A program made the position numbers and the translations under genes. The notes under the pieces are model-generated. The model made no database searches. It was not told the DNA's origin and was given only the letters and a program-made list of their open reading frames with translations. Shown here piece by piece: positions 1 through 18,061 of a stretch of 64,000 nucleotides of DNA (position 1 is its first letter; the number at the start of each line of letters is the position of its first letter). Origin of the DNA: an uncultured Paracoccaceae bacterium (GTDB taxonomy: Bacteria; Pseudomonadota; Alphaproteobacteria; Rhodobacterales; Rhodobacteraceae); assembly GCA_947503765.1 (NCBI GenBank), contig CANNFA010000001.1, forward strand, positions 186,001 to 250,000, in the 5' to 3' direction.

Positions 1-1237
1 GGCCATTGCGAGCGCCGGTGGAAAGCGCCGAGGTGATCGAGGCCGGAACCGAGATCACCAGCGCACAGGGGCAGCCGATCAGCAAGAGCGCCAGCGCCCG
101 GTAGATCCAGTCGCCCCAGGCCAACCCGAAGGCCAGCGGCGGGACGATGGCCACCAGGACCGCGACCCCGACCACGGCGGGCATGTAGACCCGGCTGAAC
201 CGGTCGATGAAACGCTCGGTCGGGGCGCGGGCGCTCTCGGCCTCCTGCACGAGGCGCACGATGCGGGCGATGGTGTTGTCCTCGGCCGCCCTGGTGACCC
301 GCACACGCAGCACCGCCTCGGCATTGATCGACCCGGCGAAAACCTCGGCGCCCGGCTCCTTCAGGCTCGGGACACTCTCGCCCGTCACGGGGCTTTCGTC
401 GACGCCGGAAATGCCCTCGGTCACCTCGCCGTCGCAGGGCACGCGGTCGCCGGGGCGGACCTGCACAACCTGCCCAACGCGGAGTTTTTCTGCCGGCACC
501 TCCCGCGTCTTGCCGTCCGCCTCAAGCCGCGCGGTCTTTGGCACGAGTTTCGACAGCGCCCGGATGCTGTCACGCGCCTTGCCGGCCGAGACGCCTTCCA
601 GCAATTCCCCCACGGCGAAGAGAAAGACGACGAGCGCGGCCTCTTCCGGCTCGCCGATCACCAGCGCGCCGCCGGCGGCGATGGTCATCAGCATCTCGAT
701 CGTGAAGGGCATGCCCGCGCGGGTCATGGCGAACGCCCTCTGCGCCACGGGAACGAGGCCGATCAGCGTGGCGAGGACGAAGGCCCAATGAGAGGTTTCG
801 GCCGGAAAGACGAGGCGCGACGCCCAGGCCGCGGCGAGCAATGCGCCGGTGCCAAGCACCAGCCGGCCCTTGGCGGTCTGGTACCACGGCGGGGCCGCCA
901 TATCCTGGGGCGGGGCCGCGTCTTGCTCCTCCGGCTCCGGAATTTCCGCGGCATCCGGAAACGCCCCCTCTGGCAGGATGAAGCCGCCCTCGGGCTTCTC
1001 CGGCCGCGCACCCTTGGGCGCGATGCCGAAGCCGACCCGGCGCACGGCTTTCTCGATGCTCTCGGACGATATCTGCGTCTCGTCCAGCGTCAGCCGCAGC
1101 CGCTCGGCCATCAGCGCGACGTCTACATCCGCGACGCCGGGCAGACGCTCGACCGCGCCGCGCACCTTTGCCGCGCAGGCTCCGCAATCCATGCCCGTCA
1201 CGCGCCATTCGCGTTGTGCTGCGTTGCCGTCCGGCAT
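1..1237 (-). CDS. Zn/Cd/Pb-type P1B-ATPase, 3' part outside window
   Basis: Heavy-metal exporting P-type ATPase of the inner membrane, 412 codons visible. I translated it directly because it runs off the window edge. Seen: an N-terminal HMA domain with GMDCGAC (C18, C21), an acidic/proline linker, membrane helices, the actuator motif PVTGES, and the ion-binding CPC (C389-P-C391) shortly before the edge. The phosphorylation site DKTGT must lie outside. The ATG at 1237 is chosen because it is in frame with the HMA motif; an ATG at 1250 is in another frame. Family knowledge: a CPC motif with one HMA domain fits ZntA/CadA/PbrA exporters. The divergent MerR gene with a divalent-type cysteine and the MerR-type promoter before this gene support Zn, Cd or Pb. 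The exact metal cannot be told. Confidence 0.9.
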   Translation of the reverse strand, partial: MPDGNAAQREWRVTGMDCGACAAKVRGAVERLPGVADVDVALMAERLRLTLDETQISSESIEKAVRRVGFGIAPKGARPEKPEGGFILPEGAFPDAAEIPEPEEQDAAPPQDMAAPPWYQTAKGRLVLGTGALLAAAWASRLVFPAETSHWAFVLATLIGLVPVAQRAFAMTRAGMPFTIEMLMTIAAGGALVIGEPEEAALVVFLFAVGELLEGVSAGKARDSIRALSKLVPKTARLEADGKTREVPAEKLRVGQVVQVRPGDRVPCDGEVTEGISGVDESPVTGESVPSLKEPGAEVFAGSINAEAVLRVRVTRAAEDNTIARIVRLVQEAESARAPTERFIDRFSRVYMPAVVGVAVLVAIVPPLAFGLAWGDWIYRALALLLIGCPCALVISVPASITSALSTGARNG

Positions 1238-1271
1238 GAGGATGCTCCATTGTGATTCCCGGTCGGATTTC

Positions 1272-1302
1272 GATATACGATCTACAGCTACTGTAGGTTC
1301 AA
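1272..1302 (-). promoter_or_regulatory. MerR-type promoter/operator of the Zn/Cd/Pb ATPase
   Basis: On the minus strand a -35 TTGAAC (1297-1302) and a -10 TATATC (1272-1277) are separated by 19 bp. The spacer holds a perfect dyad CTACAG-CTA-CTGTAG (1282-1296). Overlong spacers with a central dyad are the hallmark of promoters twisted open by MerR-family activators, and this dyad resembles ZntR/PbrR/CadR sites. It lies about 35 bp upstream of the ATPase start and between the two divergent genes, so it may also control the regulator. Confidence 0.85.
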
Positions 1303-1382
1303 GCCCTGTCGGGCGGTTTTCCGTATTGCCGCCCCCGGTGGGAGCACGCGGCCGCAGCGCTCGACCCATGAGGAGACCACCC

Positions 1383-1796
1383 ATGCTTTCGATCGGCACC
1401 CTGGGAAAGCGGACCGGCACCAAGGTGCAGACGATCCGCTACTACGAACAGATCGGGCTGATGCCCGAACCCGGCCGGACCGAAGGCGGCCAGCGCCGCT
1501 ACGAGGACGCGGAGCTTGACCGCCTGGCCTTCATCCGCCACTCCCGCGAGCTCGGGTTTTCCCTGGAGGCGATCCGGGAGCTGCTGGATCTCTCGGACAA
1601 CCCGGAACGCTCCTGCGCCCAGATCGACGCGGTCGCCCAGAAACAGCTCCACAAGGTCGAGGCCCGGATCGCCCGGCTCGAGGCTCTCCGCATCGAACTG
1701 CGCCGCATGATCGGCGAGTGCCACGCCGACCGGGTCGCCGATTGCCGCATCCTGGAAGTGCTGCGCGACCACGAGGAATGCCTGTCCGAGCACTGA
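1383..1796 (+). CDS. MerR-family regulator, divalent-metal type (ZntR/CadR/PbrR-like)
   Basis: 137-residue metal-sensing transcription activator. The N-terminal winged helix-turn-helix carries TVQTIRYYEQIGL-type MerR residues, followed by a long dimerisation helix and a C-terminal metal loop. C78 sits where divalent-metal sensors such as ZntR have their dimer-helix cysteine; C113 and C121 form the loop, and an extra C133 lies near the end. The ATG at 1383 is chosen because GAGGAGA stands about 7 nt upstream; the reading frame is open much further upstream, but that part has no such site. It is divergent from the metal ATPase and faces a MerR-type promoter, so it very likely activates that gene. 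Confidence 0.92.
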   Translation: MLSIGTLGKRTGTKVQTIRYYEQIGLMPEPGRTEGGQRRYEDAELDRLAFIRHSRELGFSLEAIRELLDLSDNPERSCAQIDAVAQKQLHKVEARIARLEALRIELRRMIGECHADRVADCRILEVLRDHEECLSEH

Positions 1797-1896: not shown

Positions 1897-2103
1897 TCAG
1901 GTCGCGGCCGGGGCTGTCACATCGTACCCGGCATTCCGAATGGCATCGGACAGGGCTTGCTCGCTCAGCGCGCTTTCGACCTCGACGACATGGGTGCCAA
2001 GATCGCACGAAACCCGGGCGGCCGGGTCGATTGCCTTGATCGCCTTTTCGATGGCGGCGGTGCAGTGCCCGCAGCTCATGTCCGGAACGCTCAGTCTGGT
2101 CAT
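1897..2103 (-). CDS. copZ: Small heavy-metal-associated (HMA) copper chaperone
   Basis: 68-residue single-domain metallochaperone of the CopZ/Atx1 type, cytoplasmic, expected to carry Cu(I) to CopA. Seen: the metal site MSCGHC (C11, C14) and a ferredoxin-like length and pattern. The His in the CxxC is common in bacterial copper chaperones. The ATG at 2103 has AAAGGAG 6 nt upstream; a longer upstream extension is open but lacks such a site. It is divergent from copA, and the gap holds one CueR-like box facing each gene, so the two are probably co-induced by copper. Confidence 0.9.
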   Translation of the reverse strand: MTRLSVPDMSCGHCTAAIEKAIKAIDPAARVSCDLGTHVVEVESALSEQALSDAIRNAGYDVTAPAAT

Positions 2104-2136
2104 CTCTGTCTCCTTTGAATGGCCCCGAGGTGAGGT

Positions 2137-2157
2137 CTTCCACCGCGGGAAGGTCAA
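2137..2157 (-). promoter_or_regulatory. CueR-like box facing the chaperone gene
   Basis: On the minus strand TTGACC (2152-2157) is followed directly by the dyad CTTCC-N6-GGAAG (2137-2152), the core of CueR/HmrR copper operators. The spacer is one base shorter than in the copA site and no clear -10 is visible. It is therefore a plausible but imperfect copper-responsive promoter. Confidence 0.6.
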
Positions 2158-2186
2158 GGCCGGGGCGGAAAATTTTTCGCCGCCCA

Positions 2187-2217
2187 TTGACCTTCCAGCA
2201 AGTGGAACCCCTATCTA
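2187..2217 (+). promoter_or_regulatory. CueR-type promoter/operator of copA
   Basis: -35 TTGACC (2187-2192), a 19-bp spacer containing the dyad TTCCA-N5-TGGAA (2193-2207), and -10 TATCTA (2212-2217). This is the classical copper-responsive MerR-family promoter, 27 bp before the copA start. Confidence 0.88.
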
Positions 2218-2244: not shown

Positions 2245-4752
2245 ATGCCAGCCCCGCAACCCCTTCGGCTTTCCGTGCAGAACATGTCCTGCGCTTCCTG
2301 CGTCGGACGGGTCGAGCGGACCCTGTCCGCGCTGGCCGGTGTGGATGACGTGCATGTGAACCTCGCCAACGAGACGGTACAGGCGCAGATCGACGCGCCC
2401 GCGCGGATTTCCGAAGTCATGGCGGCGCTCGATGATGCGGGCTATCCGGCGCGGACGCAGGATGTGCGCCTGAACGTGGCGTCGATGTCCTGCGCCTCCT
2501 GCGTGGGGCGCGTGGACAAGGCGCTGGCGGCGGTGCCGGGCGTGCTGGACGTCAACGTGAACCTCGCCTCGGAAACCGCAACGGTCACCTATGCCGAGGG
2601 CGCCGTGGCGCTTGCGGATCTGCTGAACGCGGCCGAGCAGGCGGGCTATCCGGCGGAACCCGCAGAGGATACCGCCCCCGAGGACCGCAGCGCCCGCAAG
2701 GACAGCGAGGCGCGGGCGATGGCCCGGAAAACCGTGCTGGCCGGCGTGTTTGCCCTGCCCGTCTTCCTGCTGGAGATGGGGGCGCATGTGATCCCCGGCG
2801 TGCACGGGCTGATCGGGCGGACCATCGGCCACGAGACAAGCTGGATGATCCAGTTCGTGCTGACCACCATCGTCCTGGCATGGCCGGGGCGGGCCTTCTA
2901 CACCAAGGGGTTCCCGGCCCTCTTCAAGGGTGCGCCGGACATGAACAGCCTTGTCGCGGTCGGCACCTCGGCCGCCTATCTCTATTCGCTGGTGGCGCTC
3001 TTCGCCCCCGATCTGCTGCCCGAAGCCTCGCGCGCCGTCTATTTCGAGGCGGCGGCGGTGATCGTCGTGCTGATCCTTCTGGGCCGCTGGATGGAGGCGC
3101 GCGCCAAGGGCCGCACCGGGGCCGCGATCCAGAAACTGCTGGGGCTTCAGGCACGCACCGCGCGGGTTCTTGTGGACGGCGAGCCGCAGGACGTGGCCAT
3201 CGAACGCATTCGCACCGGCGACATCCTCGTCGTTCGGCCCGGCGAGCGGATCGCGGTGGACGGCGAGGTGACCGAAGGCAGCGCCCATGTTGATGAAAGC
3301 ATGATCACCGGCGAGCCGGTGCCGGTGGCCAAGGGCACAGGCGATCCGGTCACCGGCGGCACGGTCAATGGCACCGGCGCGTTCCAGTTTCGCGCCACGC
3401 GCGTCGGCGCCGATACCACGCTGGCGCAGATCATCCGCATGGTCGAACAGGCGCAGGGCGCCAAGCTGCCGATCCAGGGCATGGTGGACCGGATCACGCT
3501 GTGGTTCGTGCCTGCGGTGATGGCCTTCGCGGCGCTGACCGTTCTGGTCTGGCTGGTCGTCGGCCCCTCGCCCGCGCTGTCCTATGCGCTGGTGGCGGGC
3601 GTGTCGGTGCTGATCATTGCCTGCCCCTGCGCGATGGGCCTGGCCACGCCGACCTCGATCATGGTCGGCACCGGACGCGCCGCCGAGATGGGGGTGCTGT
3701 TTCGCAAGGGCGATGCGCTGCAACAATTGTCCGGCGTCGGGGTCGTGGCGGTCGACAAGACCGGCACCGTCACCGAAGGCCGGCCGGAGCTGACCGACAT
3801 GGTGCTGTCGGACGGGTTCGACCGGGACGAGGTTCTGGCGCTTGTGGCCGCGGTCGAGGAACAGTCCGAGCATCCGATCGCCGATGCCATCGTGCGCGCG
3901 GCGCGGGTCGAGAACCTGGCGCGGCATGATGTCGACAGCTTCACGTCGATCACCGGGCACGGCGTTCGTGCGCAGGTCGCCGGGCGCGATGTCCTGGTCG
4001 GTGCAGACCGGCTGATGACCCGCGAAGGGCTCGAGATCGGCGGCCTCGCCGATGCGGAAAGGCGCCTTGCCGAACAGGGCCGCACCGCGCTGTTCGCCGC
4101 CGTGGACGGGCGCGTGGCCGCGGTGATCGCCGTCGCCGATCCGGTGAAGCCGTCCAGCGCGGCCGCCATCGCGGCACTGCACGATCTGGGGCTCAAGGTC
4201 GCCATGATCACCGGCGACAAGCGCGAGACGGCGGATGCCATCGCACGCGAGACCGGTATCGACCAGGTGATCGCCGGCGTGTTGCCCGACGGCAAGGTCG
4301 CGGCGCTGGACGATCTGCGGGATGGCGGGCGGCAGGTGGCCTTTGTCGGGGACGGCATCAACGACGCCCCGGCGCTTGCCCATGCGGATGTCGGCATCGC
4401 CATCGGCACCGGCACGGATGTCGCCATCGAATCCGCCGATGTGGTTCTGATGTCGGGCGATCTGCGCGGCGTGGTGAACGCCTACCAGGTGTCGATCCGA
4501 ACGATGCGCAACATCCGGCAGAACCTGTTCTGGGCCTTCGGCTACAACGTGGCGCTGATCCCGGTGGCGGCCGGCGTGCTTTATCCGCTGTTCGGCCTGC
4601 TCCTGTCGCCGGTGCTGGCTGCCGGGGCGATGGCGCTGTCGTCGGTCTTCGTGCTGACCAACGCGCTCAGGCTGCGGCGCATATCCCCCGCGATGGACGA
4701 GACGAAGACGGCCCGCCCCGCGGCGCGTCTTTCCCCTGCCCCGGCCGAATAA
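2245..4752 (+). CDS. copA: Cu(I)-exporting P1B-ATPase CopA
   Basis: 835-residue copper exporter of the inner membrane. Seen in order: two N-terminal HMA domains, each with MSCASC (first pair C16/C19); membrane helices; actuator TGE (355-357); ion channel CPC (C460-P-C462); phosphorylation motif DKTGT with D504; the nucleotide-domain SEHP histidine H543; and the hinge [10 protein letters not shown]. Two HMA domains plus CPC are typical of Cu(I) pumps. It is preceded by a CueR-type promoter and followed 13 bp later by cueR, so the two are probably co-transcribed. Length and motifs are complete. Confidence 0.96.
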
Positions 4753-4765
4753 GGAGGATTTCGAG

Positions 4766-5185
4766 ATGAACATCGGCGATGTCGCGCAGCTTTCCGGCCT
4801 GCCGGCCAAGACGATCCGCTATTACGAGGATATCGGACTGGTCAAGCCGCTCCGCAGTGCCAATGGCTATCGCAGCTTCCGCGACTGCGACGTGCACAAG
4901 CTGGCCTTTCTGGGCCGCGCCCGCGCGCTGGGATTCAGCATCGAGGATTGCCGCAATCTGCTGAAACTCTACGAGGACGACCACCGCACCAGCGCCGAGG
5001 TCAAGCAGATCGCCGAAATGCACCTGGGCCGGATCGACCAGAAGATCACCGAGCTGACGGAGATGCGCGCGACGCTTGCGCATCTGGTCAATGCCTGCGC
5101 CGGAGACAACCGGCCCGACTGCCCGATCCTGGCCGATCTTGCACCGAAACAGGACGAAAACGCGCTGCTGGATCAGCCCGGTTAG
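4766..5185 (+). CDS. cueR: Copper-responsive MerR-family regulator CueR/HmrR
   Basis: 139-residue MerR-family activator. Seen: an N-terminal TIRYYEDIGL helix-turn-helix, a dimer helix, and a metal loop with C111 and C119. The dimer-helix position that is Cys in divalent sensors is Ser here (S76 region), as expected for Cu(I)/Ag(I) sensing. A strong AAGGAGG stands before the ATG. It follows copA closely and should act on the two CueR-like boxes at 2137-2217. Confidence 0.93.
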   Translation: MNIGDVAQLSGLPAKTIRYYEDIGLVKPLRSANGYRSFRDCDVHKLAFLGRARALGFSIEDCRNLLKLYEDDHRTSAEVKQIAEMHLGRIDQKITELTEMRATLAHLVNACAGDNRPDCPILADLAPKQDENALLDQPG

Positions 5186-5462
5186 GGCATGTTTCGGCCG
5201 GTCGAATTCAGGCACCTACCCGAACCGGGTTGAGCGCCCCCTCTCTGGGCCCGCCAGGCGCATGGCATCGGCGGCAGGACTGCCGGCTTTGCGCCGGGGC
5301 CGGGGCGATCCTTCCTGCCCTGGCACCGCGAAAATGCCCGACCTTGTCGGCTGCAAGGGGATTTCTTGCGGAACCCCGGAACCATCCAGCGCTGGAAGGT
5401 GGTTGTGCGGGAAAGTGGCCGGCCAGAGGCCCGAAATCTTTCGCGTCCGAGAAAGGATGATC
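5186..5462. other. Intergenic stretch between cueR and the DUF305 gene
   Basis: About 277 bp with no convincing gene. It contains a perfect 12-bp palindrome TCCAGCGCTGGA (5385-5396) that resembles half of a CueR box, but no matching -35/-10 pair is obvious. It may hold the promoter of the next gene. Confidence 0.4.
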
Positions 5463-6344
5463 ATGTCATACTGGAGATTTGCCGCAATGATCGCGACCTC
5501 GACGGTCGTGATGTTCATTCTGATGTATCTCAACACCTATCTCTGGGCGCATGTCTTCTGGTCCGAGACGCGGGCCTACATGGCGGTCCTGATGGGCGCG
5601 ACGATGGCGATCATCATGCTGGCCTTCATGCTGTCGATGTATTCCAGCAAGGCGATCAACGCCGCCATCTTCGCCGGCGCGGTCCTGGCCTTCGCCGGCT
5701 CTCTGTGGCTGGTGCGCAGCCAGGTGACGGTGGGCGATACCAGCTTCATGCGCGCGATGATCCCGCATCATTCCATCGCCATCATGACGTCGAGCCGGGC
5801 CAATATCGAGGATGCCCGCGTGCGCAAGCTGGCCGATGAAATCATCTATGCGCAGGACAAGGAAATCGCCGAGATGCGGTATCTTGTCGACGAGATCGAG
5901 GCATCGGGCGTGATGCCGCGATCGCAAGAGACTCCCGCCGGTAACGTCATGGATCTCGAGCAGGCGCTTTCCACGGCCGATATCGCGGTTCTCGATCCGG
6001 GGTTCATGACCGAAGCGGAGATCGCCCGCCTGTTCCCCGACGGCCCCGCCTGCACCTTCGCCTATACCTCGGACAGTCCCGCGGTCCTCGCGCTCGGGCC
6101 GGCCGATGACGGGATGGCCGGCCTTGTGAAGCTCAGCGGCGATCTGGTGCGGCTGGACCTGCAAGCGGGCGGCGACATCGCGGCCGGCGCCGCGCCGCGC
6201 ACCGAGGGCCTTGCCATGCAGGTCAGCGCGCCGGGCGGCGGTGCCCTGAACGCGGCCGGAGCCATGCAGGAGGCCGATCTGACCCTCGAGCTGGATGCCG
6301 GCCTGAGCGCCGGGTTCCGCGGCTTCTACCGCTGTGCGGGATAG
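5463..6344 (+). CDS. DUF305-domain membrane protein with extra C-terminal domain
   Basis: 293-residue protein. Three hydrophobic helices in the first 85 residues are followed by a DUF305 segment with FMRAMIPHHSIAIM and a pattern of paired His and Met; DUF305 proteins are often linked to copper handling. The last ~110 residues (from about 185) form a second, polar region that I do not recognise. The start at 5463 is preferred over the ATG two codons upstream because AAAGGA lies at proper distance only for 5463. Its position after copA-cueR suggests a role in metal tolerance, by inference only. Confidence 0.75.
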   Translation: MSYWRFAAMIATSTVVMFILMYLNTYLWAHVFWSETRAYMAVLMGATMAIIMLAFMLSMYSSKAINAAIFAGAVLAFAGSLWLVRSQVTVGDTSFMRAMIPHHSIAIMTSSRANIEDARVRKLADEIIYAQDKEIAEMRYLVDEIEASGVMPRSQETPAGNVMDLEQALSTADIAVLDPGFMTEAEIARLFPDGPACTFAYTSDSPAVLALGPADDGMAGLVKLSGDLVRLDLQAGGDIAAGAAPRTEGLAMQVSAPGGGALNAAGAMQEADLTLELDAGLSAGFRGFYRCAG

Positions 6345-6487: not shown

Positions 6488-6832
6488 ATGACCCAGATCG
6501 CGATGCCGATCGTTGTTACGCTTCTTGCCGTCGTCTTCGCGGTGGCAATGCAGCGGATCGGCCCGCAAACCGGCGCGACCTGGCCGCAGCGCGCGCCCTT
6601 TCTGGGGGGCGGCCAACCCGAAACCCACGCCTGGCAGCGGTTTCACGTCCGCTATTACCCGATGACGCTGCTGTTCATCGCCTTCGAGATGGAGATGATG
6701 TTCATGTATCCTTGGGCGGTGGTCTATGTCGAAACCGGGCTGACGGCGCTGGCCGAGATGGGCATGTTCCTGGGGATCCTGTCGGTCGGCATCCTCTATG
6801 GCTGGCGCGAGGGGGTGTTCCGGTGGCAATGA
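6488..6832 (+). CDS. Complex I-like subunit A (NuoA/ND3 homologue)
   Basis: 114 residues, three predicted membrane helices. The helix 2 segment FEMEMMFMYPWAVV matches the conserved NuoA/ND3 motif (usually FDxExxFLFPWA). GGAGG precedes the ATG. It opens an eight-gene operon whose other members resemble NuoH, J, K, L, M and N. Homology to NuoA is clear; a role in NADH oxidation is doubtful because the catalytic subunits are absent from the operon. Confidence 0.88.
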   Translation: MTQIAMPIVVTLLAVVFAVAMQRIGPQTGATWPQRAPFLGGGQPETHAWQRFHVRYYPMTLLFIAFEMEMMFMYPWAVVYVETGLTALAEMGMFLGILSVGILYGWREGVFRWQ

Positions 6833-7701
6833 CCCTGCTGTCCGCGCTGGCCCGCCGCGCCGAGATCCCGGTCTTTGCCGTGATCGGGACGCGGGGGCTG
6901 GGCCTCGCCGAAAGCCTGCGGCGCCGGCCCGGCCTGCGGCTGGTGGACAGCCCGCGCCATGCCCGCGTGCTGCTGGTTGCCGGTGCCGTGGACGGCGCGC
7001 AGAAACAGGCGCTGGAAAGGCTGCACGCGCAGCTTCCCGCGCCGCGCGGGACGGTCTGGTGGCAGGCCGAGCCCCTGTTCGCGCGGGGCGAGGTCGTGAC
7101 GGGCGACGACCCGATGCCGGCGATCCGGGCGGCGGCAAGCGCCGACGATCCCGACCAGCGCCCCGACGTGCCGCCGCATCCGTGGCAGGGGATCGGCCCG
7201 CATGGCCACGGCGGCCGCGGCATGATGGGCGGCAATCCCTACGGCCGCCCGATGGCGATGACGGCGGATGACATCCGCGACGGGCTGGCGCTGGACGCCT
7301 ATAGCGCGCGGTTCGGCCCGTTCCTGCCGATGCTGCCGCCGGGGCTGGCGCTGGACCTGACCTTGCAGGGCGACGTGATCGTGTCGGCGGATGTGGCGTC
7401 GGCGCCGTTCGAGCAGGGGCCGCAGGGCGACGCCCCGGATCTGTGCGCCGCGCGGATGCTGCGGCTGATGGGGATCGGGCCGATTGCGGCGCGGGCGCGT
7501 GGCGCTCTGCTGGCGCTGCCCCAGGGGTCGGGGATGCGCCGGCGGCTGGCAGCGTGGCTGCGCGGCGAACAGGTGAGCGAGACGCCGGATCCGCTGCCCG
7601 CCGCGCTGCCGGGGTTGGAATGGGCCGAGGCGGTGCTGTGGCTCGCAAGCTTTCCGCCCTCGCGCCTGCGCGCTGCCTGCATGGAAAGGCACGCCGCATG
7701 A
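6829..7701 (+). CDS. Degenerate NuoB/NuoD-like soluble subunit of the orphan complex
   Basis: 290 residues, mostly hydrophilic. Residues ~30-75 (SPRHARVLLVAGAV, then a helix and LPAPRG) follow the NuoB fold pattern, but the four cysteines that bind cluster N2 are missing; the whole protein has only two Cys, near the C-terminus. A Gly/His/Met-rich linker (HPWQGIGPHGHGGRGMMGG) follows. Then comes a segment PPGLALDLTLQGDVIVSAD that resembles the start of NuoD, without its HRG motif. The ATG at 6829 overlaps the stop of the A gene by 4 bp. I infer a structural Q-module remnant that joins to the membrane arm. The comparison with NuoB/NuoD is from memory of motifs, not a computed alignment. Confidence 0.65.
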   Translation: MTLLSALARRAEIPVFAVIGTRGLGLAESLRRRPGLRLVDSPRHARVLLVAGAVDGAQKQALERLHAQLPAPRGTVWWQAEPLFARGEVVTGDDPMPAIRAAASADDPDQRPDVPPHPWQGIGPHGHGGRGMMGGNPYGRPMAMTADDIRDGLALDAYSARFGPFLPMLPPGLALDLTLQGDVIVSADVASAPFEQGPQGDAPDLCAARMLRLMGIGPIAARARGALLALPQGSGMRRRLAAWLRGEQVSETPDPLPAALPGLEWAEAVLWLASFPPSRLRAACMERHAA

Positions 7702-8591
7702 TCGTCGCCACGCTTGCCTTGCTGCTGGCGCTGCCGCCTCTGATCTGGGCGGCCGCCATGTTCGACCGGATCGGCACCGGGCGGGGCGCCATCGTCATGG
7801 GCCCGATCCGCAACGGCGCCGCCCTGATGCTGCGCCCGAATACCGAAACCGAGGCGCCGGACCGGCTGAACCGGCTGCTGGCGCCCGGCTGGTACCTGGC
7901 GCTGGCGCTGGTCGGGTTGTCGGTGGTGCCGCTGGCGCCGGGGATCGTCGCAACCGACCTTTCCACCGGCCTCGTGCTCTGGGGCGCCTGCGAGGCGCTG
8001 ACGGTGGTGGTCGTGTTCCTGCATGGCTGGTCGCCCAACGCGCCGCTGCCCCTGATCGGGGCCTACCGCTATGTCGCCATCGGCCTGCCGGCGATGCTGC
8101 TGTCGATGTTCGTGCTGATCGGCGCGGCGCTGCCGGCGGAATCTTTGTCGGTCGTGGAGGTCGTCGAGGCGCAGCGGGGTCTGTGGAACGTGGTGCGCCA
8201 ACCGCTTGGCCTGCCGCTGTTCATGGCGCTGGGGCTGGCGATCACCCTGCGCGGGCCGTTCGATTATGCGGACGGGGCGGAACTCGCCGGCGGCACCAGC
8301 GCCGAGGAAAGCGGCCCGGCGCTGGCGCTATGGCAGTTTGCACGCGCCTCGATGCTGGTGGCATTCTCGGCCATGGCGGCGGCGGCCTTTCTCGGCGGCC
8401 ATCTGGGGCCGGTGCTGCCGGGGCCGGTCTGGCTGCTGCTCAAGACGCTGGCCGTGATGGCGGCGACCGTGGCCGCCGGACGGTTCTTCGCGCGGATGCC
8501 CCCCGCGCGGATGCTGACCTTCCTCTGGGTCGTGTTGCTGCCGCTCTCCTTCGTCAGTCTGGCGCTCGTCGGGGTGGAGGTGCTGGAATGA
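7698..8591 (+). CDS. Complex I-like subunit H (NuoH/ND1 homologue)
   Basis: 297-residue polytopic membrane protein, about eight helices. Seen: GWSPNAPLPLIGAYR (NuoH: GWSSxxKxxxLGxxR) and PFDYADGAEL (NuoH: PFDLPEAExEL). The glutamate normally found just after the first motif (SxEV region) is replaced by AIGLP here. The length is a little short of usual NuoH (~325). ATGA overlap with the previous gene shows tight co-translation. Confidence 0.85.
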   Translation: MIVATLALLLALPPLIWAAAMFDRIGTGRGAIVMGPIRNGAALMLRPNTETEAPDRLNRLLAPGWYLALALVGLSVVPLAPGIVATDLSTGLVLWGACEALTVVVVFLHGWSPNAPLPLIGAYRYVAIGLPAMLLSMFVLIGAALPAESLSVVEVVEAQRGLWNVVRQPLGLPLFMALGLAITLRGPFDYADGAELAGGTSAEESGPALALWQFARASMLVAFSAMAAAAFLGGHLGPVLPGPVWLLLKTLAVMAATVAAGRFFARMPPARMLTFLWVVLLPLSFVSLALVGVEVLE

Positions 8592-9193
8592 CCGATGCGC
8601 TCTTCCTCGCGCTTTCGGCGCTGGCGATCTGGTCGGGATGGCGGGTGTTCCGCGTCGATTCCATGGTGCGCGCCTCGTTCCAGCTGATGGTGTCCTTCAT
8701 CGCCGTCGGCCTGATCGCGGTGCTGCTGGCCGCGCCCTATATCGGCATCGCCACGATCTTCATGATGGCGGTCGAGATGATGGTCATGGCGCTGTTCATG
8801 GTGATGTTCATGATGAACCCGGCGGGCCTCAATCCGATGGTGATGGTGCATCAGCACCGCTTTTCCGTCGCCGCGGGGAGCCTTGCCTTTGCCGGGCTGT
8901 CGGCGGCAGTGCTGCTGTCGGACCTGCCGGTGCGGCCCGTGCCCGAGGGGGCCGAGGTGGTGCGCGATCTGGGCCACGAACTGCTCGGCCCGTCGATGCT
9001 GATCTTCGAGACGGCGGGGGTCACGCTGCTGGCCACGATGATCGGCGCGGTCGTGCTGTCGGCGCATTCCGGGCGCTATGGCGCGTCGGATGCCGGATCG
9101 CGGCCGCCCGGCCTGACCCCCGGCGGCGCGCCGGCGGGGCGCAAGCCCGAGGGCGGCGGCGGGCATCACCACCACCACCACGGGGGGCATTGA
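8588..9193 (+). CDS. Complex I-like subunit J with C-terminal His tract
   Basis: 201 residues with five hydrophobic helices of NuoJ/ND6 type. Helix 3, the pi-bulge helix in complex I, reads IATIFMMAVEMMVMALF with a membrane glutamate where classical NuoJ has VYxGAV. The C-terminus is a Gly/Pro-rich tail ending in GGGHHHHHHGGH, a natural six-histidine run that could bind metal. ATGA overlap with the H gene. Family assignment rests on position in the operon and hydrophobic pattern more than on motif identity. Confidence 0.8.
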   Translation: MTDALFLALSALAIWSGWRVFRVDSMVRASFQLMVSFIAVGLIAVLLAAPYIGIATIFMMAVEMMVMALFMVMFMMNPAGLNPMVMVHQHRFSVAAGSLAFAGLSAAVLLSDLPVRPVPEGAEVVRDLGHELLGPSMLIFETAGVTLLATMIGAVVLSAHSGRYGASDAGSRPPGLTPGGAPAGRKPEGGGGHHHHHHGGH

Positions 9194-9194
9194 G

Positions 9195-9500
9195 ATGACG
9201 CTGGTTTCCGTCCTGATCGTGGCCGCCGCGCTGATCGGCATCGGGCTTTATGGCGCGCTGTCGCAGCAAAGCTTCGTCATGCTGATGATGGGGCTGGAGC
9301 TGATGCTGAACGGCGCGATCCTGGCCGTCATCGGCTTCTGGGCATTCTCGCTTGGCGGCGCGCCCGAGGGACAGCTTCTGGCGATCATCGTCATGGCGGT
9401 GATGGCGGTCGAGATGGCGGTCGGCTTTGCGCTGGTCGTCGCGGTCTACCGCAAGCGGCAGGCGGACATGACCGAAAGCCTGAAGACGATGAGGCATTGA
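9195..9500 (+). CDS. Complex I-like subunit K (NuoK/ND4L homologue)
   Basis: 101 residues, three membrane helices. Both intramembrane glutamates of NuoK are kept: GLELML in helix 2 and AVEMAVG in helix 3. Length is normal for the family. It starts 2 nt after the J gene and shares one base with the next start. In complex I, NuoK links the E-channel to the antiporter-like subunits. Confidence 0.9.
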   Translation: MTLVSVLIVAAALIGIGLYGALSQQSFVMLMMGLELMLNGAILAVIGFWAFSLGGAPEGQLLAIIVMAVMAVEMAVGFALVVAVYRKRQADMTESLKTMRH

Positions 9501-11473
9501 TGCTGTTCGCGCTGCCCCTGTTTCCGGCGCTGGCCGGGCTGGCGATCTGGGCGCAAGGCGACGGGTCGCGCCTGCGCCTTGGTCTGATCGCAGGCGGCAC
9601 GGCAGTTGTGACGCTGGCGCTGGCGGTGCTGGCCGCCGCAGAGGGCTGGCAGGGCAGCTTTGTCTGGGGCGCCGGGCTGGAGTTGCGGCTGGCGCTGACG
9701 CCGCTATCGGCCGCCGTGGCGATCACCGTGCCGGTGGTGGCGCTGGCGGTTCTGGTTTTCGCCGCCGCGCATGAGGAAGGACGCGGGCCGGCGCGGCTGC
9801 TGGGCCTGATGTTGATATTCACCGGCGCGATGCTGCTCACTGTCACCGCCGCCGACCTGCTGTCGCTGCTGATCGGCTGGGAGGTGATGGGGTTCTGTTC
9901 CTGGGCGCTGATCGGCCACCTTTGGCGCGAGCGCGCGAACATGGCTTCGGGGCGCTATGCCTTCGTGACCACGCGGCTGGGCGATCTGGGCCTGTTCATC
10001 GCGCTGATGGCGACATGGAGCGGCGCGGGCACGCTCGATTACGCCGCGCTCGGGCGGCTGGACGGCACGGCGCTGGCGCTGACCGCCTTCGGCGTGCTGG
10101 TCGCCGCCGGGGCCAAGGCGGGGCAAGGGCCGTTCGCGGCCTGGCTGTTCCGCGCGATGGACGGGCCGTCCTCGGTCTCGGCGCTGCTGCATGCGGCGAC
10201 GATGGTCGCGGCGGGGGCCTATCTGCTGGCGCGGCTGCATCCGTGGCTAAGCGGTGTGCCGGGCTGGAGCGGCACCGTCATCGCGCTTGGTCTCGTCACG
10301 GCGCTGGCAGGCGGCGCGGTGGCGGTGATGCAGGGGCACGCGAAGAAACTGCTCGCCGCCTCGACCTCGGCGCAGCTGGGGCTGATGTTCGTGGCGGTCG
10401 GCACAGGCTATCCCGGCATCGCGGCGGTGCATCTGGTGACGCATGCCGCGCTCAAGGCGCCGCTGTTCCTGTCGGCCGGGGTTGCCGGGAAGGCGGCCGG
10501 AACCTACCGGCTGCGCGACATGGGGTTCGGACGCACGCTGCCGTGGGCGGCGGGGCTGACCGCGCTGGCGGCCCTGGCGCTGGCCGCCGTGCCGCCGCTG
10601 GGCGCCGCCTGGAGCAAGGAGCAGATCGCGGCCGCCGCCAGCCATCAAAACCTGTGGCTGGGCCTTGCCGTGATGGTCGCGGGCGCGCTTTCCGCCGCCT
10701 ATGCCGCGCGGTTCTGGTGGCTGGCCTACGGGCCGGGGGACGCCGAACCCGCGGCCGGGCCGCGCTGGCTTGAGATCGCCGCGCTCGGTGCGCTGGTACT
10801 GGCCTGCGCCGGCCTTGGCCTGCTGTGGCTGCCCGCCGTTCAGGACGCGCTGCCGATCCGCCTGCCCGAGGGCACGCCGCTGGAGATCGCGGCCTCGCTG
10901 GCGCTGGTCGCCATCGGCCTACTAGCCGGGCTGACACTGGCGCGGCGCGCGGACGCGCCGGAGCCGCAGGCCGCCGACTGGCTGGGCCTGCCCGCGCTGA
11001 TCGGGCACGGCATCGTGGTGCCGTTCGAGCGGCTGGCCCATCTTGCCGCGCGCGCCGACGATGCGGTGCTGGACGCGATCCCGCGCGGCGCGGCTTGGGC
11101 GGCGATCCGTGTTGCGCGCGGCTGGCGCTGGCTGGACAGGGCCGGGCCGGATGCCGTTCCGCGCGGCGCGGCGGGCGCGACCCGGATGCTGGCGCGGGGC
11201 GGGCGCGGTTTCGGCGGGTTGGCACAGGCCGACCAGGGCGCGCTCGACGCCGCGATCTGGCGAATTGCCGACGCCACGCGCGCCCTCGCCCGGCTGTCCG
11301 ATCATCCGGGCGAGACGCTGACCGACGGGCTGCCCGAAGGCGCCGCGCGCATCACCGGGCGCAGCGGCGCCGATGCGCGGCGGCTGCAGACCGGGCTATC
11401 GCACCATTACTATGCCATCTTCACCATCGGCGCGTTGCTGGCCATCCTGTTTCTGATCTTCGGAAAGCTCTGA
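9500..11473 (+). CDS. Complex I-like subunit L (NuoL/ND5, antiporter-like)
   Basis: 657-residue antiporter-like membrane subunit. The helix 5 glutamate (E128 in LIGWEVMG) and the helix 7 lysine (K206 in GAKAGQGPFAAWL) are present, as is VSALLHAATMV. A long C-terminal part ends in a last hydrophobic helix, consistent with the lateral helix and anchor of NuoL. The ATG at 9500 is chosen; a TTG one codon upstream is possible. Of the three antiporter-like subunits in this operon this one keeps the classical charge pair. Confidence 0.9.
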   Translation: MLFALPLFPALAGLAIWAQGDGSRLRLGLIAGGTAVVTLALAVLAAAEGWQGSFVWGAGLELRLALTPLSAAVAITVPVVALAVLVFAAAHEEGRGPARLLGLMLIFTGAMLLTVTAADLLSLLIGWEVMGFCSWALIGHLWRERANMASGRYAFVTTRLGDLGLFIALMATWSGAGTLDYAALGRLDGTALALTAFGVLVAAGAKAGQGPFAAWLFRAMDGPSSVSALLHAATMVAAGAYLLARLHPWLSGVPGWSGTVIALGLVTALAGGAVAVMQGHAKKLLAASTSAQLGLMFVAVGTGYPGIAAVHLVTHAALKAPLFLSAGVAGKAAGTYRLRDMGFGRTLPWAAGLTALAALALAAVPPLGAAWSKEQIAAAASHQNLWLGLAVMVAGALSAAYAARFWWLAYGPGDAEPAAGPRWLEIAALGALVLACAGLGLLWLPAVQDALPIRLPEGTPLEIAASLALVAIGLLAGLTLARRADAPEPQAADWLGLPALIGHGIVVPFERLAHLAARADDAVLDAIPRGAAWAAIRVARGWRWLDRAGPDAVPRGAAGATRMLARGGRGFGGLAQADQGALDAAIWRIADATRALARLSDHPGETLTDGLPEGAARITGRSGADARRLQTGLSHHYYAIFTIGALLAILFLIFGKL

Positions 11474-11474
11474 C

Positions 11475-12953
11475 ATGCTGACATTCGCCATCCTGCTGCC
11501 CTTTGCCGCCGCTGCCCTGCTGGCTTTCGCACCGGTATCGGCGGGCGCCTCACGCGCCATCGCTATCGCCACGGCGGGGTTGTCGCTGCTGGTGCTGGTC
11601 GTCGTCTGGGCGGGCTTCACCCCCGGCGCCGGGTTCCAGGCGGTGCAGGAGGCACCTTGGATCCCCGCGCTTGGCGTTGCCTGGCGAGTCGGCGTCGACG
11701 GCATCTCGCTGCCGCTGGCGCTGATGAGCGGGCTTCTGTTCGTCGCCTCCATCGCCTGGCCGATGGAGCGCGACGTGAACGCGCGGCAATATTACGCGTG
11801 GTTCCTGTTTCTCGAAGGCGCGTCGCTGGGCCTGTTCCTGACGCTCGATCTGCTGCTTTTCTACGTGTTCTTCGATCTCAGCCTTGTCGGCATGTATTTC
11901 CTGATCGGCCGCTGGGGACACGGGAACGCGCAGCGCGCGGCGCTCAAGTTCTTTCTCTACACGCTGGCCGGCTCGCTGCTGATCCTGCTGGCGATCATCG
12001 CGCTTGTCCTTATGACCGATCCGCTGACCTTCGACATGCGCGATCTGATCGCGGCGCAGCCCGTGGCCGGGATGGACCTGCGCGCCGGCCTGATCCTGCT
12101 GGGCTTCGTCATCGGCTTTGCGATCAAGACGCCGCTTTTCCCGGTGCATACCTGGCTGCCGCCCGCGCATGTGGACGCGCCGGGGCCGGCCTCGGCGATC
12201 CTGGCGGGCGTGCTGCTCAAGATGGGGACCTACGGGCTGGTGCGGATCGCGATGCAGATGATGCGCGAGACCTTCGCCGCCTGGGCGCTGGCGATCGGCA
12301 TCCTCGCGCTGATCTCGATCATCTGGGGGTCCATCGTCGCCTTCGCGCAGGAGAACTTCAAGCGCCGCATCGCCTATACCTCCGTGAACCACATGGGGTA
12401 TGCGGTGCTGGGCATCGCCGTGGCGGGATCCGCCGTGACGGGGCACGAGGCCGCGCGCGATCTGGCGCTGACCGGTGCGATGGTCGAGATGGTGGCGCAT
12501 GGCCTGATTACCGGCGCGCTGTTCCTGATTGCGGGCGCATTCTGGGCGCGCACGCAGGAATACGAGTTGGGCCATTATGGCGGGCTGGCGTCGGGTGCGC
12601 CGCGCATGATGGCGGCGATGGGGCTGGCCAGCTTTGCCTCGCTCGGCCTGCCGGGACTGGCCGGGTTCGTGGCCGAGGTGCAGATCTTCATCGGGGCGTT
12701 TGCCATCTGGCCGTGGCTGGCGGCGCTGGCGCTGCTGGGTCTGATCGTCACGGCGGCGCTGTTCCTGGGCATGCTGCAACGGATATTCTTCGGCGACCGG
12801 CCGCCCGCGCTCGACGGCTTCACCGACCTCACGCGAACCGAAATCGGTATCCTCGCCGCCCTTCTGGTGCTTGTCGTTCTGATCGGGGTCTGGCCCGCCT
12901 GGCTGCTGGACATGATCGGTGCCGGAAGCGCGCTGGCCTTCGGGGGCGGCTGA
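11475..12953 (+). CDS. Complex I-like subunit M (NuoM/ND4, antiporter-like)
   Basis: 492-residue membrane protein. The segment FAIKTPLFPVHTWLPPAHVDAP with K218 and the following ILAGVLLKMGTYG are classical NuoM. The helix 5 position that is normally Glu is Asp (D134 in VFFDLSLVGMYFLIG). It starts 1 nt after the L gene. Expected to be an ion-translocating unit in the membrane arm. Confidence 0.9.
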   Translation: MLTFAILLPFAAAALLAFAPVSAGASRAIAIATAGLSLLVLVVVWAGFTPGAGFQAVQEAPWIPALGVAWRVGVDGISLPLALMSGLLFVASIAWPMERDVNARQYYAWFLFLEGASLGLFLTLDLLLFYVFFDLSLVGMYFLIGRWGHGNAQRAALKFFLYTLAGSLLILLAIIALVLMTDPLTFDMRDLIAAQPVAGMDLRAGLILLGFVIGFAIKTPLFPVHTWLPPAHVDAPGPASAILAGVLLKMGTYGLVRIAMQMMRETFAAWALAIGILALISIIWGSIVAFAQENFKRRIAYTSVNHMGYAVLGIAVAGSAVTGHEAARDLALTGAMVEMVAHGLITGALFLIAGAFWARTQEYELGHYGGLASGAPRMMAAMGLASFASLGLPGLAGFVAEVQIFIGAFAIWPWLAALALLGLIVTAALFLGMLQRIFFGDRPPALDGFTDLTRTEIGILAALLVLVVLIGVWPAWLLDMIGAGSALAFGGG

Positions 12954-12954
12954 G

Positions 12955-14352
12955 ATGCCGGTCGCCGATCTTGGCCCCGAGATCGCGTTGATCGCGGGTG
13001 CCATCGCGGCATTGCTGCTGGCGATGGTGCTGCCGCAGCAAAGGCTGGGATGGTGTCTGGCCCCTGCCCTTGTCGCACTTGCGGTCGCGGCGTTCTGGGC
13101 GCTGGCGCAGGCGGACGCGGTGCGGCTGACCTTTTCGGGCACCTGGGCGCTGGACGGCGTGACGCTCTGGGCGCGGGGGATGATCGTGGCAGGGACGGCG
13201 CTATGCCTGATCCTTGCGCCGCGCTGGTTCGCACAGGACCGGCGGCACGGCGAATTCTACACCATGACGCTGTTTTCCGCGCTTGGCGCCGTCGCGATGG
13301 CGGGCGCGGCGGATCTCATGCAGCTTGTCATGGCGGTGCTGCTGTCGTCGGTCACGGGCTATGTTCTGGCCGCCTGGCACCGCGACTGGGCGCTGTCGGT
13401 CGAGGCGGGGATGAAGTATTTCCTGATCGGCGCGCTGGCCAATGCGCTGCTGGTGATCGGCGTGATCCTGTTGATGGGCATGGCGGGAACCAGCGATTAC
13501 GCGGCGCTGAAAGGCGCGGATGTCTCGTCGCCCCTGGCGCTGACCGGCCTTGCGCTGATCGTGTCGGGCCTTGCCTTCAAGCTGGGCGCGGTGCCGGGCC
13601 ATGCCTGGATGCCCGACGTGGCCGAGGGCGCGCCGGTCCCGGCGGCGGCGTTCCTGACCGTGGTGCCCAAGATCGGCGCGGCTTTGGCGCTGTACCGGCT
13701 GGTGCATCTGTTCCCGGACGCCGAGATGCTGCGCCCGCTGATCGCGGCGCTGTCGGTTCTGACGATGACCCTCGGCAACCTCGCCGCCCTTTGGCAGACC
13801 GATGTGCGCCGCCTGATCGGCTGGTCGTCGGTGTCGCAATCGGGCTATGCGCTGATGGCCGTGACGGTGGCGGACCTCAGCCCGGACGCGCTGCCGTCGC
13901 TGCTGTGGTTCCTGGCCGCCTATGCGCTGGCCAACGTGACCGCCTTCGCCGTCATCGCGCATCTGCGCGGGCGCACGGCGCTGGCCGATTACGCGGGGCT
14001 CGCGCGCGCCCGGCCCGGCATGGCGGCGGCGCTGATCGTGGCGTTCCTGTCGCTGGTCGGCATCCCGCCGCTGATCGGGTTCATGGGCAAGCTGGGCCTG
14101 TTCATCGCCACGATCGACGGCGGCTATGCATGGCTGGCTCTGGCGGCGGTGCTGAACACGGTGGTGTCGCTGTTCTACTATGCGCGGGTGATCGCACCGA
14201 TGTATTTCGCCGCCCCGCAAGGCGCCGCGCCGACCATCCTGGGCTGGCAAAGCGGCGCGGCGGCGGTGCTTGGCACGGCGGCGCTGATCGGGCTGGGGAT
14301 CGTCAGCGGCCCGTTTCTTGACAGCGCCATCGCGGTCATCGTCCTGCCCTGA
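12955..14352 (+). CDS. Complex I-like subunit N (NuoN/ND2, antiporter-like)
   Basis: 465-residue membrane protein, last gene of the operon. Seen: EAGMKYFLIGALANALL and FKLGAVPGHAWMPDVAEGAPVP with K209, both NuoN signatures. The helix 5 glutamate found in NuoN (LxLGLELQSL) reads VMAVLLSSV here, placing Leu129 at that position. The ATG at 12955, just after the M stop, is chosen over an upstream GTG inside the M gene. Confidence 0.88.
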   Translation: MPVADLGPEIALIAGAIAALLLAMVLPQQRLGWCLAPALVALAVAAFWALAQADAVRLTFSGTWALDGVTLWARGMIVAGTALCLILAPRWFAQDRRHGEFYTMTLFSALGAVAMAGAADLMQLVMAVLLSSVTGYVLAAWHRDWALSVEAGMKYFLIGALANALLVIGVILLMGMAGTSDYAALKGADVSSPLALTGLALIVSGLAFKLGAVPGHAWMPDVAEGAPVPAAAFLTVVPKIGAALALYRLVHLFPDAEMLRPLIAALSVLTMTLGNLAALWQTDVRRLIGWSSVSQSGYALMAVTVADLSPDALPSLLWFLAAYALANVTAFAVIAHLRGRTALADYAGLARARPGMAAALIVAFLSLVGIPPLIGFMGKLGLFIATIDGGYAWLALAAVLNTVVSLFYYARVIAPMYFAAPQGAAPTILGWQSGAAAVLGTAALIGLGIVSGPFLDSAIAVIVLP

Positions 14353-17245: not shown

Positions 17246-18061
17246 TCAAATGATCGCGCCCCGCACCTTGGCCGACACCCATTCGCTGATCACCACGGCC
17301 AGCAGGATCACCAGCAGGATCAGGCTGACCTGCGGCCAGGCCAGCACGTTCAGCGACGATTGCAGTTGCAGGCCGATCCCGCCGGCCCCGACCAGGCCCA
17401 GCACCGTCGATTCGCGGATGTTGATGTCCCAGCGGAACACGGCGATGCCGGCGAAGGCGGGCAGGATCTGCGGCACGATCCCGTAGGCCATGACCTGCCA
17501 GCGGCTGGCGCCGGTGGCGGTGACGGCCTCGACCTGGGACTCGTCGATCTCCTCGATCGCCTCGTAGAGCAGCTTGGCGCAGAACCCGATGGAGCGGATG
17601 GCGATGGCCACCACCCCGGCCAGCACGCCCGGCCCGATGATGGCGATCAGCAGCAGCGCCCAGATCAGCGAGTTGATCGAGCGGGTCGAGACGATGATCA
17701 GCAGCGCCAGCGGCCGGATGATGAAGCGCGACGGCGTGGTGTTGCGGGCGGCCAGGAACGCCACCGGCACCGCGATGCACAGCGAGATCATCGTGCCCAG
17801 CGTGGCGATGTTCAGCGTGTCCCAGATCGGCCGGCCAAGCTGGGTGATGTATTCCCATTTCGGCGGCGTCGCGCGGGTCCAGATGTCGTTGGCGATGCGA
17901 GGCGCGTCCCAGACGAAGAACCAGGTGGTCGCGTCCGAGATCTGCTTCCAGCAATACAGGAAGACCGCCGTGCCGATCAGCCACATGCCCCAGCGCAGCA
18001 GCGTCTGGGTGCGGTCGCGGCGGCGCCAGATCTGTCCGCCGTTGCTTTCGATCACCGGCAT
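17246..18061 (-). CDS. phnE: Phosphonate-type ABC transporter permease (PhnE-like, second)
   Basis: 271-residue inner-membrane permease with about six helices. Seen: the EAA loop region EAVTATGASRWQVMAYGIVPQ and the PhnE end motif [15 protein letters not shown]. It abuts the other permease gene end to start, so the two form a heterodimeric channel with PhnC and PhnD. Substrate class (phosphonate, phosphite or phosphate ester) is inferred from the family only. Confidence 0.92.
   Translation of the reverse strand: MPVIESNGGQIWRRRDRTQTLLRWGMWLIGTAVFLYCWKQISDATTWFFVWDAPRIANDIWTRATPPKWEYITQLGRPIWDTLNIATLGTMISLCIAVPVAFLAARNTTPSRFIIRPLALLIIVSTRSINSLIWALLLIAIIGPGVLAGVVAIAIRSIGFCAKLLYEAIEEIDESQVEAVTATGASRWQVMAYGIVPQILPAFAGIAVFRWDINIRESTVLGLVGAGGIGLQLQSSLNVLAWPQVSLILLVILLAVVISEWVSAKVRGAII

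Follow-up and report, generated by a model that had tools for sequence, protein, structure and literature searches.

What can the membrane arm of respiratory complex I be for when no redox module accompanies it? The question is raised by a 64,000-nucleotide stretch of the genome of an uncultured Paracoccaceae bacterium (contig CANNFA010000001.1, positions 186,001 to 250,000; hereafter the window), in which eight intact open reading frames (ORFs), overlapping or abutting, lie on the forward strand between positions 6488 and 14352 in the order A–BD–H–J–K–L–M–N. A sequence-only reading of this DNA had described eight coupled genes including homologues of NuoA, H, J, K, L, M and N, a description that the ORFs and Pfam searches confirm. 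The answer that we favour, at somewhat less than even confidence, is that this homologue of complex I, devoid of electron-transfer parts, would have been rebuilt as a proton-driven Cu(I)/Ag(I) exporter serving copper resistance and acting in the manner of the Mrp antiporters.

Seven of the products give clear Pfam matches to membrane subunits of complex I: A (6488–6832; PF00507, 4.9e-25), H (7698–8591; PF00146, 2.8e-39), J (8588–9193; PF00499, 3.2e-17), K (9195–9500; PF00420, 3.8e-18) and three antiporter-like subunits, L (9497–11473, an ATG at 9500 being possible; PF00361, 1e-43), M (11475–12953; PF00361, 3e-61; TIGR01972, 462 bits, above the cut-off) and N (~12955–14352, with an alternative GTG at 12919; PF00361, 3e-54; TIGR01770, 327 bits, just below the cut-off). 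The eighth, BD (6829–7701), gives only a sub-cut-off match to the NuoB family (PF01058, E 0.074). A separate nuo locus lies on another contig of this genome; searches there confirmed NuoB, E, H, I and three antiporter subunits, the remaining ORFs were assigned by gene order (the K gene was missed by the gene caller), and two additional antiporter-type genes of Mrp type are on the same contig. The eight genes are therefore an additional set, which we call the orphan cluster, as opposed to the housekeeping copies.

A search of species genomes, limited to clade I in that four H proteins of this clade were the queries, gave 108 relatives, of which 80 were kept. The block recurs in these loci with J in 80, K and L in 79 each, BD in 76, A and M in 74 each and N in 72, the losses lying mostly at contig ends. 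Since it recurs so widely and since all eight genes are under purifying selection (dN/dS 0.02–0.29 against three relatives, calculated with our own Nei–Gojobori script), the cluster is the product of neither chance nor decay. The sequence-only reading had also reported no linked redox partner and had proposed to look for one wherever the gene order recurs. With the housekeeping copies as queries (E 1e-5), linked NuoC, D, E, F and I were found at none of the 80 loci, and co-occurrence was essentially limited to one NuoG-like match (92 bits, locus L063) and two NuoB-like matches of about 43 bits.

BD, the one soluble protein listed by the same reading, is a vestige of the peripheral arm whose cofactor-binding residues are gone. 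By profile comparison, its first third corresponds to a stretch of NuoB (hhalign probability 94, E ~1e-7), only the middle part of NuoB being covered, and the second half of the longer form found in gammaproteobacterial relatives corresponds to NuoD (probability 96, E 5e-9), from a point after residue 200 of the genome's own NuoD, past the quinone-site part; in the short BD of the window, NuoD was not reached by profile comparison. Single-chain AlphaFold2 models of the window and long forms have mean pLDDT values of 85 and 86, and Foldseek retrieved 11 and 38 matches, respectively, at E ≤0.001, every one from complex I structures and, judged by chain and length, of NuoB type for the window BD and of NuoD type for the long form. 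Given these profile and Foldseek matches, BD is the remnant of a NuoB–NuoD fusion.

In an alignment of 76 BD proteins (the window and 75 of the 80 loci, leaving out three loci without BD and two BDs shorter than 230 residues), no cysteine column is conserved, the commonest being occupied in 23 of 76, so that both the N2-ligand cysteines and the NiFe-binding cysteines are missing; by eye, the NuoD quinone signature GPQHPxxHG is replaced by GPFxPxxPPG. The quinone site of NuoD also has a catalytic tyrosine region. For complex I, His228 of NuoCD has been described as a proton donor (PMC10212512). What is conserved instead, at residues ~121–152 of the window BD, is a Met/Gly/His motif, GxGGxGMMGGxPYGRPMAM followed by RDGLxLD, most positions of which are kept in at least 95% of the proteins (range 83–99%; the four methionines, 96–99%). 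At the same junction, the BDs of clade II (Sulfitobacter, Nitratireductor, Thioclava, Rubrobacter) carry two to five heavy-metal-binding domains (HMBD, PF19335), detected in 4 of the 9 BDs scanned, all from clade II, with E values down to 1e-75, and a CPM[HD] motif occurs in the BD of six further loci in the window's family. The window BD has no HMBD, and its putative metal-binding candidate is the Met/Gly/His motif alone. As judged from sequence, the NADH module (NuoE, F and G), the Fe–S relay (NuoI and the N2 cysteines) and the quinone site of NuoD are absent from the cluster.

The proton-translocating arm of complex I (L, M, N, H, J, K and A) is retained by Pfam, tree and residues, with the exception of residue E133 of NuoN. 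A FastTree LG phylogeny of 101 antiporter-type subunits, the comparison that the sequence-only reading had recommended, resolves one clade for each of orphan L, M and N (SH-like support 0.97, 0.89 and 0.96), paired with NuoL, NuoM and NuoN, respectively (0.97, 0.79 and 1.0); the genome's own MrpA and MrpD and the hydrogenase subunits HyfB/D/F fall outside these groups, which rules out an arm derived from Mrp or from a hydrogenase. Note that locus L115 has no N and that its M, mislabelled N in the tree, was moved by hand. Clades I and III split from clade II alike within the L, M and N groups, where two clade II members and one clade III member were sampled. These sequences are most simply explained by a single divergence from complex I, after which the set evolved together.

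Most of the proton-channel residues that we compared are invariant (copies shorter than 85% of the length of the window's protein were dropped from the residue and methionine analyses, five loci being left out). L retains E129, K207, K320 and K374, counted from 9497 (Escherichia coli NuoL E144, K229, K342 and K399), in 75 of 75 proteins. M has D134, K218, K249, H306, H342 and E401 in 72 of 72, so that E. coli K234, K265, H322, H348 and E407 are kept and E144 has become aspartate. The four channel lysines of N (E. coli K158, K217, K247 and K395) are found in 71 of 71, and K retains E35 and E73 (E. coli E36 and E72) in 80 of 80. In A, E67 and E69 occupy the positions of E. coli D79 and E81, the latter invariant and the former replaced by glutamate in 74 of 75. 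H keeps E. coli D79 in 80 of 81, and its quinone-side carboxylates are altered: E157 is replaced in most proteins (M 36, I 33, L 8, E 3, Q 1 of 81; Arthrobacter has E), the E218 column is deleted and E241 is an arginine, both in 81 of 81, and part of the first loop is also lost. Altogether, L and M look complete, N has retained its lysines and lost E133, on the side facing the E-channel, and the quinone side is gone.

What the orphan subunits have gained is methionine, in the subunits of the E-channel, which is formed by A, J and K with part of H (PMC10212512). The methionine content of orphan A, J and K is 8.2, 8.5 and 9.5%, against 3.5, 5.6 and 4.4% in 12, 39 and 18 housekeeping proteins, respectively; in H, L, M and N, the orphans lie below the housekeeping copies. 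We defined as orphan-specific the columns with methionine in at least 90% of orphans and in fewer than 20% of housekeeping proteins. There are six such columns in A, ten in J and six in K (416 residues), against two in H, none in L and two each in M and N (1914 residues); once the start codons of K and N are removed, the comparison is 21/416 against 5/1914 (Fisher 3e-12). Six clade II and III members, which played no part in choosing the columns, have methionine at 16–18 of the 21, including all ten in J. None of the columns holds methionine in A and J of E. coli or of the genome's own housekeeping set, or in K of E. coli, the only K compared.

In J, whose third transmembrane helix (TM3) is methionine-rich, V58, Y59 and I63 of NuoJ are replaced by M59, M60 and M64. 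V58 and Y59 are within the modelled E-channel region and I63 blocks the E-channel water wire in one state, as described for complex I in PMC13324432. The position of Y59 is that of E706, an essential cation-site residue of Mrp, and the Na+ exit path of Mrp coincides with the E-channel, according to the structural account in PMC7419157. A precedent for a methionine path is offered by CusA, described as exporting Cu(I) through a transmembrane methionine relay with the proton-motive force as drive (PMC8092243). The C-terminus of orphan J is moreover histidine-rich in 70 of 80 proteins and in none of the 39 housekeeping ones; in the window, residues 185–200 form a His/Gly run, a natural His tag that phmmer mistakes for cloning tags.

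The orphan cluster is linked to copper-resistance genes above background. With fixed bit thresholds, copper genes were found near 42 of the 80 loci, and near 37 of the 59 that are at least 17 kb long. In the window's family, they were found in none of 40 housekeeping nuoH regions (104 kb of flank in all) and in none of 40 arbitrary 20-kb regions (800 kb; Fisher 4e-10), the latter placed by hand, several per genome, and not drawn at random. In the window itself, the cluster is preceded by (i) part of the gene for a second heavy-metal P-type ATPase, coding for its N-terminus (1–1423, reverse strand; E1-E2_ATPase 6e-53, HMA 1e-13); this gene extends beyond the window (L119:4955–7423, window positions being those of L119 minus 6000), and a DUF411 protein is encoded past the window edge; (ii) a CopZ-like HMA-domain gene (1897–2187, reverse strand, L119:7897–8187; Pfam HMA 1.6e-12); (iii) a P1B-type, CopA-like ATPase gene with two HMA domains (2245–4752, forward strand; E1-E2_ATPase 1e-57, HMA 9e-31 over two stretches); (iv) a MerR-family, CueR-like regulator gene (4766–5185, forward strand; MerR-DNA-bind 4e-20); and (v) a DUF305 membrane protein gene of uncertain start codon (5436–6344, forward strand; Pfam DUF305 2e-11). 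Between the CopZ-like and CopA-type genes lies a candidate CueR-type operator, ACCTTCCAGCAAGTGGAACCC (2190–2210, forward strand), with three mismatches to a CueR consensus; it is the one weak site found by the operator search, and with 1.2 chance matches expected per window only its position favours it. On a Martelella plasmid, the gene after the ATPase is annotated as cueR and a DUF305 gene lies directly 5' of A.

Clustering of 872 neighbour ORFs, with families named by eye from annotated relatives and from overlap with copper-query matches, gave multicopper-oxidase-type proteins at 21 loci, CopB-type at 17, Cu-ATPases and MerR regulators at 13 each, EgtB-like at 12, EgtD-like at 11, cytochrome c at 10 and CusA-type at 8 (7 of 80 at the count threshold). 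Annotated plasmid regions gave a similar picture: 11 of 14 have copper or heavy-metal genes, two have none and one encodes hypothetical proteins throughout.

From the observed gene content, redox loss, ancestry, channel residues, methionine enrichment and copper linkage, we infer metal binding, transport, its direction and its stoichiometry for the proposed Cu(I)/Ag(I) exporter. These ions are the likely coupled ones because of the upstream copper genes, the metal-binding domains in BD of the sister clade and the methionine-rich E-channel subunits. Protons would enter through L, M and N, down the proton-motive force, and the shared hydrophilic axis would couple this entry to the outward movement of a soft cation, most likely Cu(I), possibly Ag(I). 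The cation would leave through the former E-channel (H, A, J and K), with the conserved methionines on the walls provided by J, A and K. BD would cap the cytosolic side at the former quinone chamber, where its GxGGxGMMGGxPYGRPMAM segment, or the HMBD domains in the sister clade, would collect cytosolic copper and gate its entry. Overall, the machine would resemble the Mrp Na+/H+ antiporters, except that the coupled ion would be copper, and it would work beside the ATP-driven CopA. That it makes up a new class of metal pumps, travelling on plasmids in Pseudomonadota and Actinomycetota, in which the E-channel has become a relay of methionines and the quinone chamber an intake for copper, is a wider proposal that we make a little more tentatively.

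Several points weigh against this proposal. NuoL D303 is a histidine in 72 of 75 orphans, and E133 of NuoN, which we take to be the TM5 glutamate, is a leucine in 71 of 71 and is not glutamate in clades II and III either; with E133 lost, the coupling point is altered and the analogy with Mrp is incomplete there. The methionines of J TM3 do not lie significantly on a single helix face (p 0.15), and the putative placement of the conserved methionines in the channel is argued from published numbering. The single-chain model leaves the BD motif disordered (pLDDT <50), as would fit a segment ordered by partners or by metal. The direction of transport, export, rests on genomic context. As to that context, the copper query set was not blind, since it was assembled after some neighbourhoods were known (the same list served for the controls), the 80 loci over-sample Halomonadaceae and the controls come from the window's family only. 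The flanks of 22 of the 59 long loci have no copper gene, nor do the annotated Thioclava and Rhodococcus plasmids, and the 22 copper-free loci share no theme, no family recurring in more than four among 142 neighbour proteins (called mechanically, with 14 of 156 listed neighbour ORFs not included).

A rival reading is an antiporter that is gated by copper instead of transporting it, in which BD would sense cytosolic copper and the arm would move Na+ or K+ and H+, restoring pH, sodium balance or membrane potential when copper harms Fe–S enzymes. Many carriers are marine or halophilic by name, the channel residues of L and M are retained, a potassium-channel-type gene lies near 5 of the 80 loci, and Mrp, the known redox-free relative, exchanges Na+ or K+ for H+ (PMC7419157). 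Such an antiporter would leave unexplained why the conserved methionines extend beyond BD to the membrane subunits A, J and K, and the genome already has Mrp-type genes; we consider it unlikely.

Two other readings keep copper at the centre and are both somewhat less likely still. In the first, the cluster would be a redox pump in which Cu(I)/Cu(II) bound to BD takes the place of N2, exchanging electrons with quinone or a cytosolic donor while protons are pumped outward. The complex I ancestry, the retained E-channel region and the frequent cytochrome c-type and multicopper-oxidase-type neighbours speak for it; the lack of any conserved cysteine in BD, the replaced NuoD signature, the NuoD match that starts past the quinone-site part and the lost quinone-side residues of H speak against it. 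In the second, no better placed, copper or silver would move inward, or copper would be handed to periplasmic cuproenzymes, for supply or maturation and not for detoxification. The same methionine columns and copper neighbours would serve this reading, the sequence leaving direction unfixed, but the neighbours are resistance genes with CueR or 'metal-sensitive' regulators, and exporters.

That the cluster provides an alternative membrane arm for the NuoEFGI/C modules of the host's own complex I is very improbable. NuoF is present in 22 of the 24 host genomes searched (20 above the cut-off, two just under), which speaks for it. The two others are drafts of Billgrantia antri and Halomonas korlensis, in which the best NuoF-type matches reach 435 and 279 bits, respectively, where the cut-off is 559; the sole NuoD matches of these drafts are weak (E 1e-4 and 3e-5) and have the coordinates of the orphan BD. 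With neither NuoD nor canonical NuoF there, a housekeeping complex I should be dispensable for the arm in these hosts. BD cannot carry N2, and the plasmid stretches bearing the cluster show no other nuo genes in the parts read. Together with the 80 loci and their three redox-type matches, the two drafts make a redox module located elsewhere, or borrowed from the host complex I, unlikely. Finally, the idea of a decaying relic of a duplicated nuo operon, for which the missing redox subunits are the argument, has next to no chance against the low dN/dS values (which rule out a pseudogene for the family, although single copies look broken, as on the Martelella plasmid with a transposase gene after BD), the channel residues conserved across phyla and the newly gained conserved features.

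The exporter that we favour can be set against four known systems. With complex I (NDH-1, NuoA–N), the orphan cluster shares homologous L, M, N, H, J, K and A subunits, L, M and N being sister to NuoL, M and N, most channel residues and a BD folding as pieces of NuoB and NuoD; it differs by the absence of linked NuoC, E, F and I, of the N2 cysteines, of the quinone site and of the NuoN TM5 glutamate, and by its copper context and the new methionines of its E-channel subunits. Like Mrp (CPA3), it has complex-I-type antiporter subunits free of redox partners, and the Mrp cation path lies at the position of the E-channel (PMC7419157). Unlike Mrp, it has A, BD, H and three antiporter subunits, its L, M and N stand apart from MrpA and MrpD, and its coupled ion would probably be Cu(I)/Ag(I). 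The MrpD residue matching NuoN E133, reported to help hold Na+ in Mrp (PMC7419157), has no counterpart in orphan N; no recurrent neighbour family was recognised as MrpE, F or G in the clustering, no dedicated search having been run. CusA (HME-RND) belongs to a separate protein family with a separate architecture, and the likeness, by analogy, would be Cu(I) export driven by the proton-motive force along a methionine-lined membrane path, as described for CusA (PMC8092243). Antiporter-like subunits and subunits of NuoH, NuoB and NuoD type also occur in the group 4 [NiFe] hydrogenases (Hyf, Hyc, Mbh), but BD has no conserved cysteines and HyfB/D/F separate from the orphan subunits in the tree.

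The sequence-only reading had suggested an ion antiporter; an antiporter is still the best description, although that reading had overlooked the copper genes, the BD metal-binding domains and the methionine-rich E-channel subunits. It had also supposed that database relatives might be labelled as NADH dehydrogenase components, and they are annotated as NADH-quinone oxidoreductase subunits. We found no description of the orphan cluster or of its copper link in open-licence papers. A survey of complex I reports partial Nuo sets on plasmids (PMC12361115) and may have counted some orphan clusters; its main text contains neither 'copper' nor 'metal', and we found no separate family or function proposed in it.

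The cluster may thus be a previously unrecognised proton-powered copper pump. If so, it would bear on the central question of complex I, namely how protons come to be driven at a distance of hundreds of angstroms from an event at the quinone/E-channel end: a natural homologue with most of the proton side, in which electrons are swapped for what looks to be a soft metal, would allow the two halves of the coupling problem to be treated apart and be amenable to the usual antiporter assays. Such a pump would further provide direct evidence for the capacity of the complex I E-channel to act as a cation path, and it would be a new kind of copper/silver exporter, plasmid-borne and hidden in databases under the name 'NADH-quinone oxidoreductase'.

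The hosts of the 80 loci are mainly Alpha- and Gammaproteobacteria, with some Actinomycetota; they include Roseovarius, Palleronia, Caenispirillum, Novosphingobium, Salinisphaera, Marinobacter, many Halomonadaceae and one Allopusillimonas, as well as Actinomycetota bins and one Anaerolinea (Chloroflexi) bin, that is, three phyla, the third being a single bin. Two additional clades, II and III, are carried by plasmids and, since the scan used clade I H patterns, are known only from these and from the six further loci. Plasmid clusters were read in Arthrobacter FB24, Rhodococcus, Pseudonocardia, Mycobacterium avium and Rubrobacter tropicus; those of Gordonia and others are known from H matches only. 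The cluster is uncommon, occurring in 11 of 295 genomes of the window's family (its own included, six being clade II by motif) and in 7 of 398 genomes of the phylum at E 1e-10, two of the latter being short partial matches.

Individual records add some detail. On the Martelella mediterranea plasmid pMM259 (17675–20242), only A and a short BD are annotated, followed by an ISL3-family transposase, and copper genes remain around them. In Roseivivax marinus, a BD match of the orphan family occurs on two plasmids, NZ_CP090153.1 and NZ_CP090160.1. Clade III relatives are found on plasmids of Mycobacterium avium, M. intracellulare and M. paragordonae (L032 and five further records), and a heavy-metal ATPase adjoins the cluster on one inspected mycobacterial plasmid. 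The H of the betaproteobacterial Allopusillimonas ginsengisoli record is 86% identical to that of the window, closer than several Rhodobacterales, which suggests either a recent transfer or a contaminated assembly. CP070277.1, from a Bacteroidota isolate, and NZ_CP066787.1, from Martelella lutilitoris, share a plasmid length of 166348 bases and the same BD fragment; one of the two host labels is therefore doubtful, and no further phylum was counted.

Among the neighbours, EgtB-like and EgtD-like genes (12 and 11 of 80 loci) recur after N in L090, L092, L100, L107, L110, L114 and other Halomonadaceae, and on a plasmid of Halomonas KO116 egtB and egtD, annotated for ergothioneine synthesis, lie immediately 3' of N; a copper–thiol link is possible. 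A small cysteine-rich protein (L097:7892–8233 and relatives), encoded near the cluster at 8 of 80 loci when the count threshold is applied, presumably resembles the Csp/DUF326 copper-storage proteins. Further along the window, the reverse-strand gene at 17246–18061 encodes, by eye, a phosphonate (PhnE)-type ABC transporter permease and has no relation to the orphan cluster.

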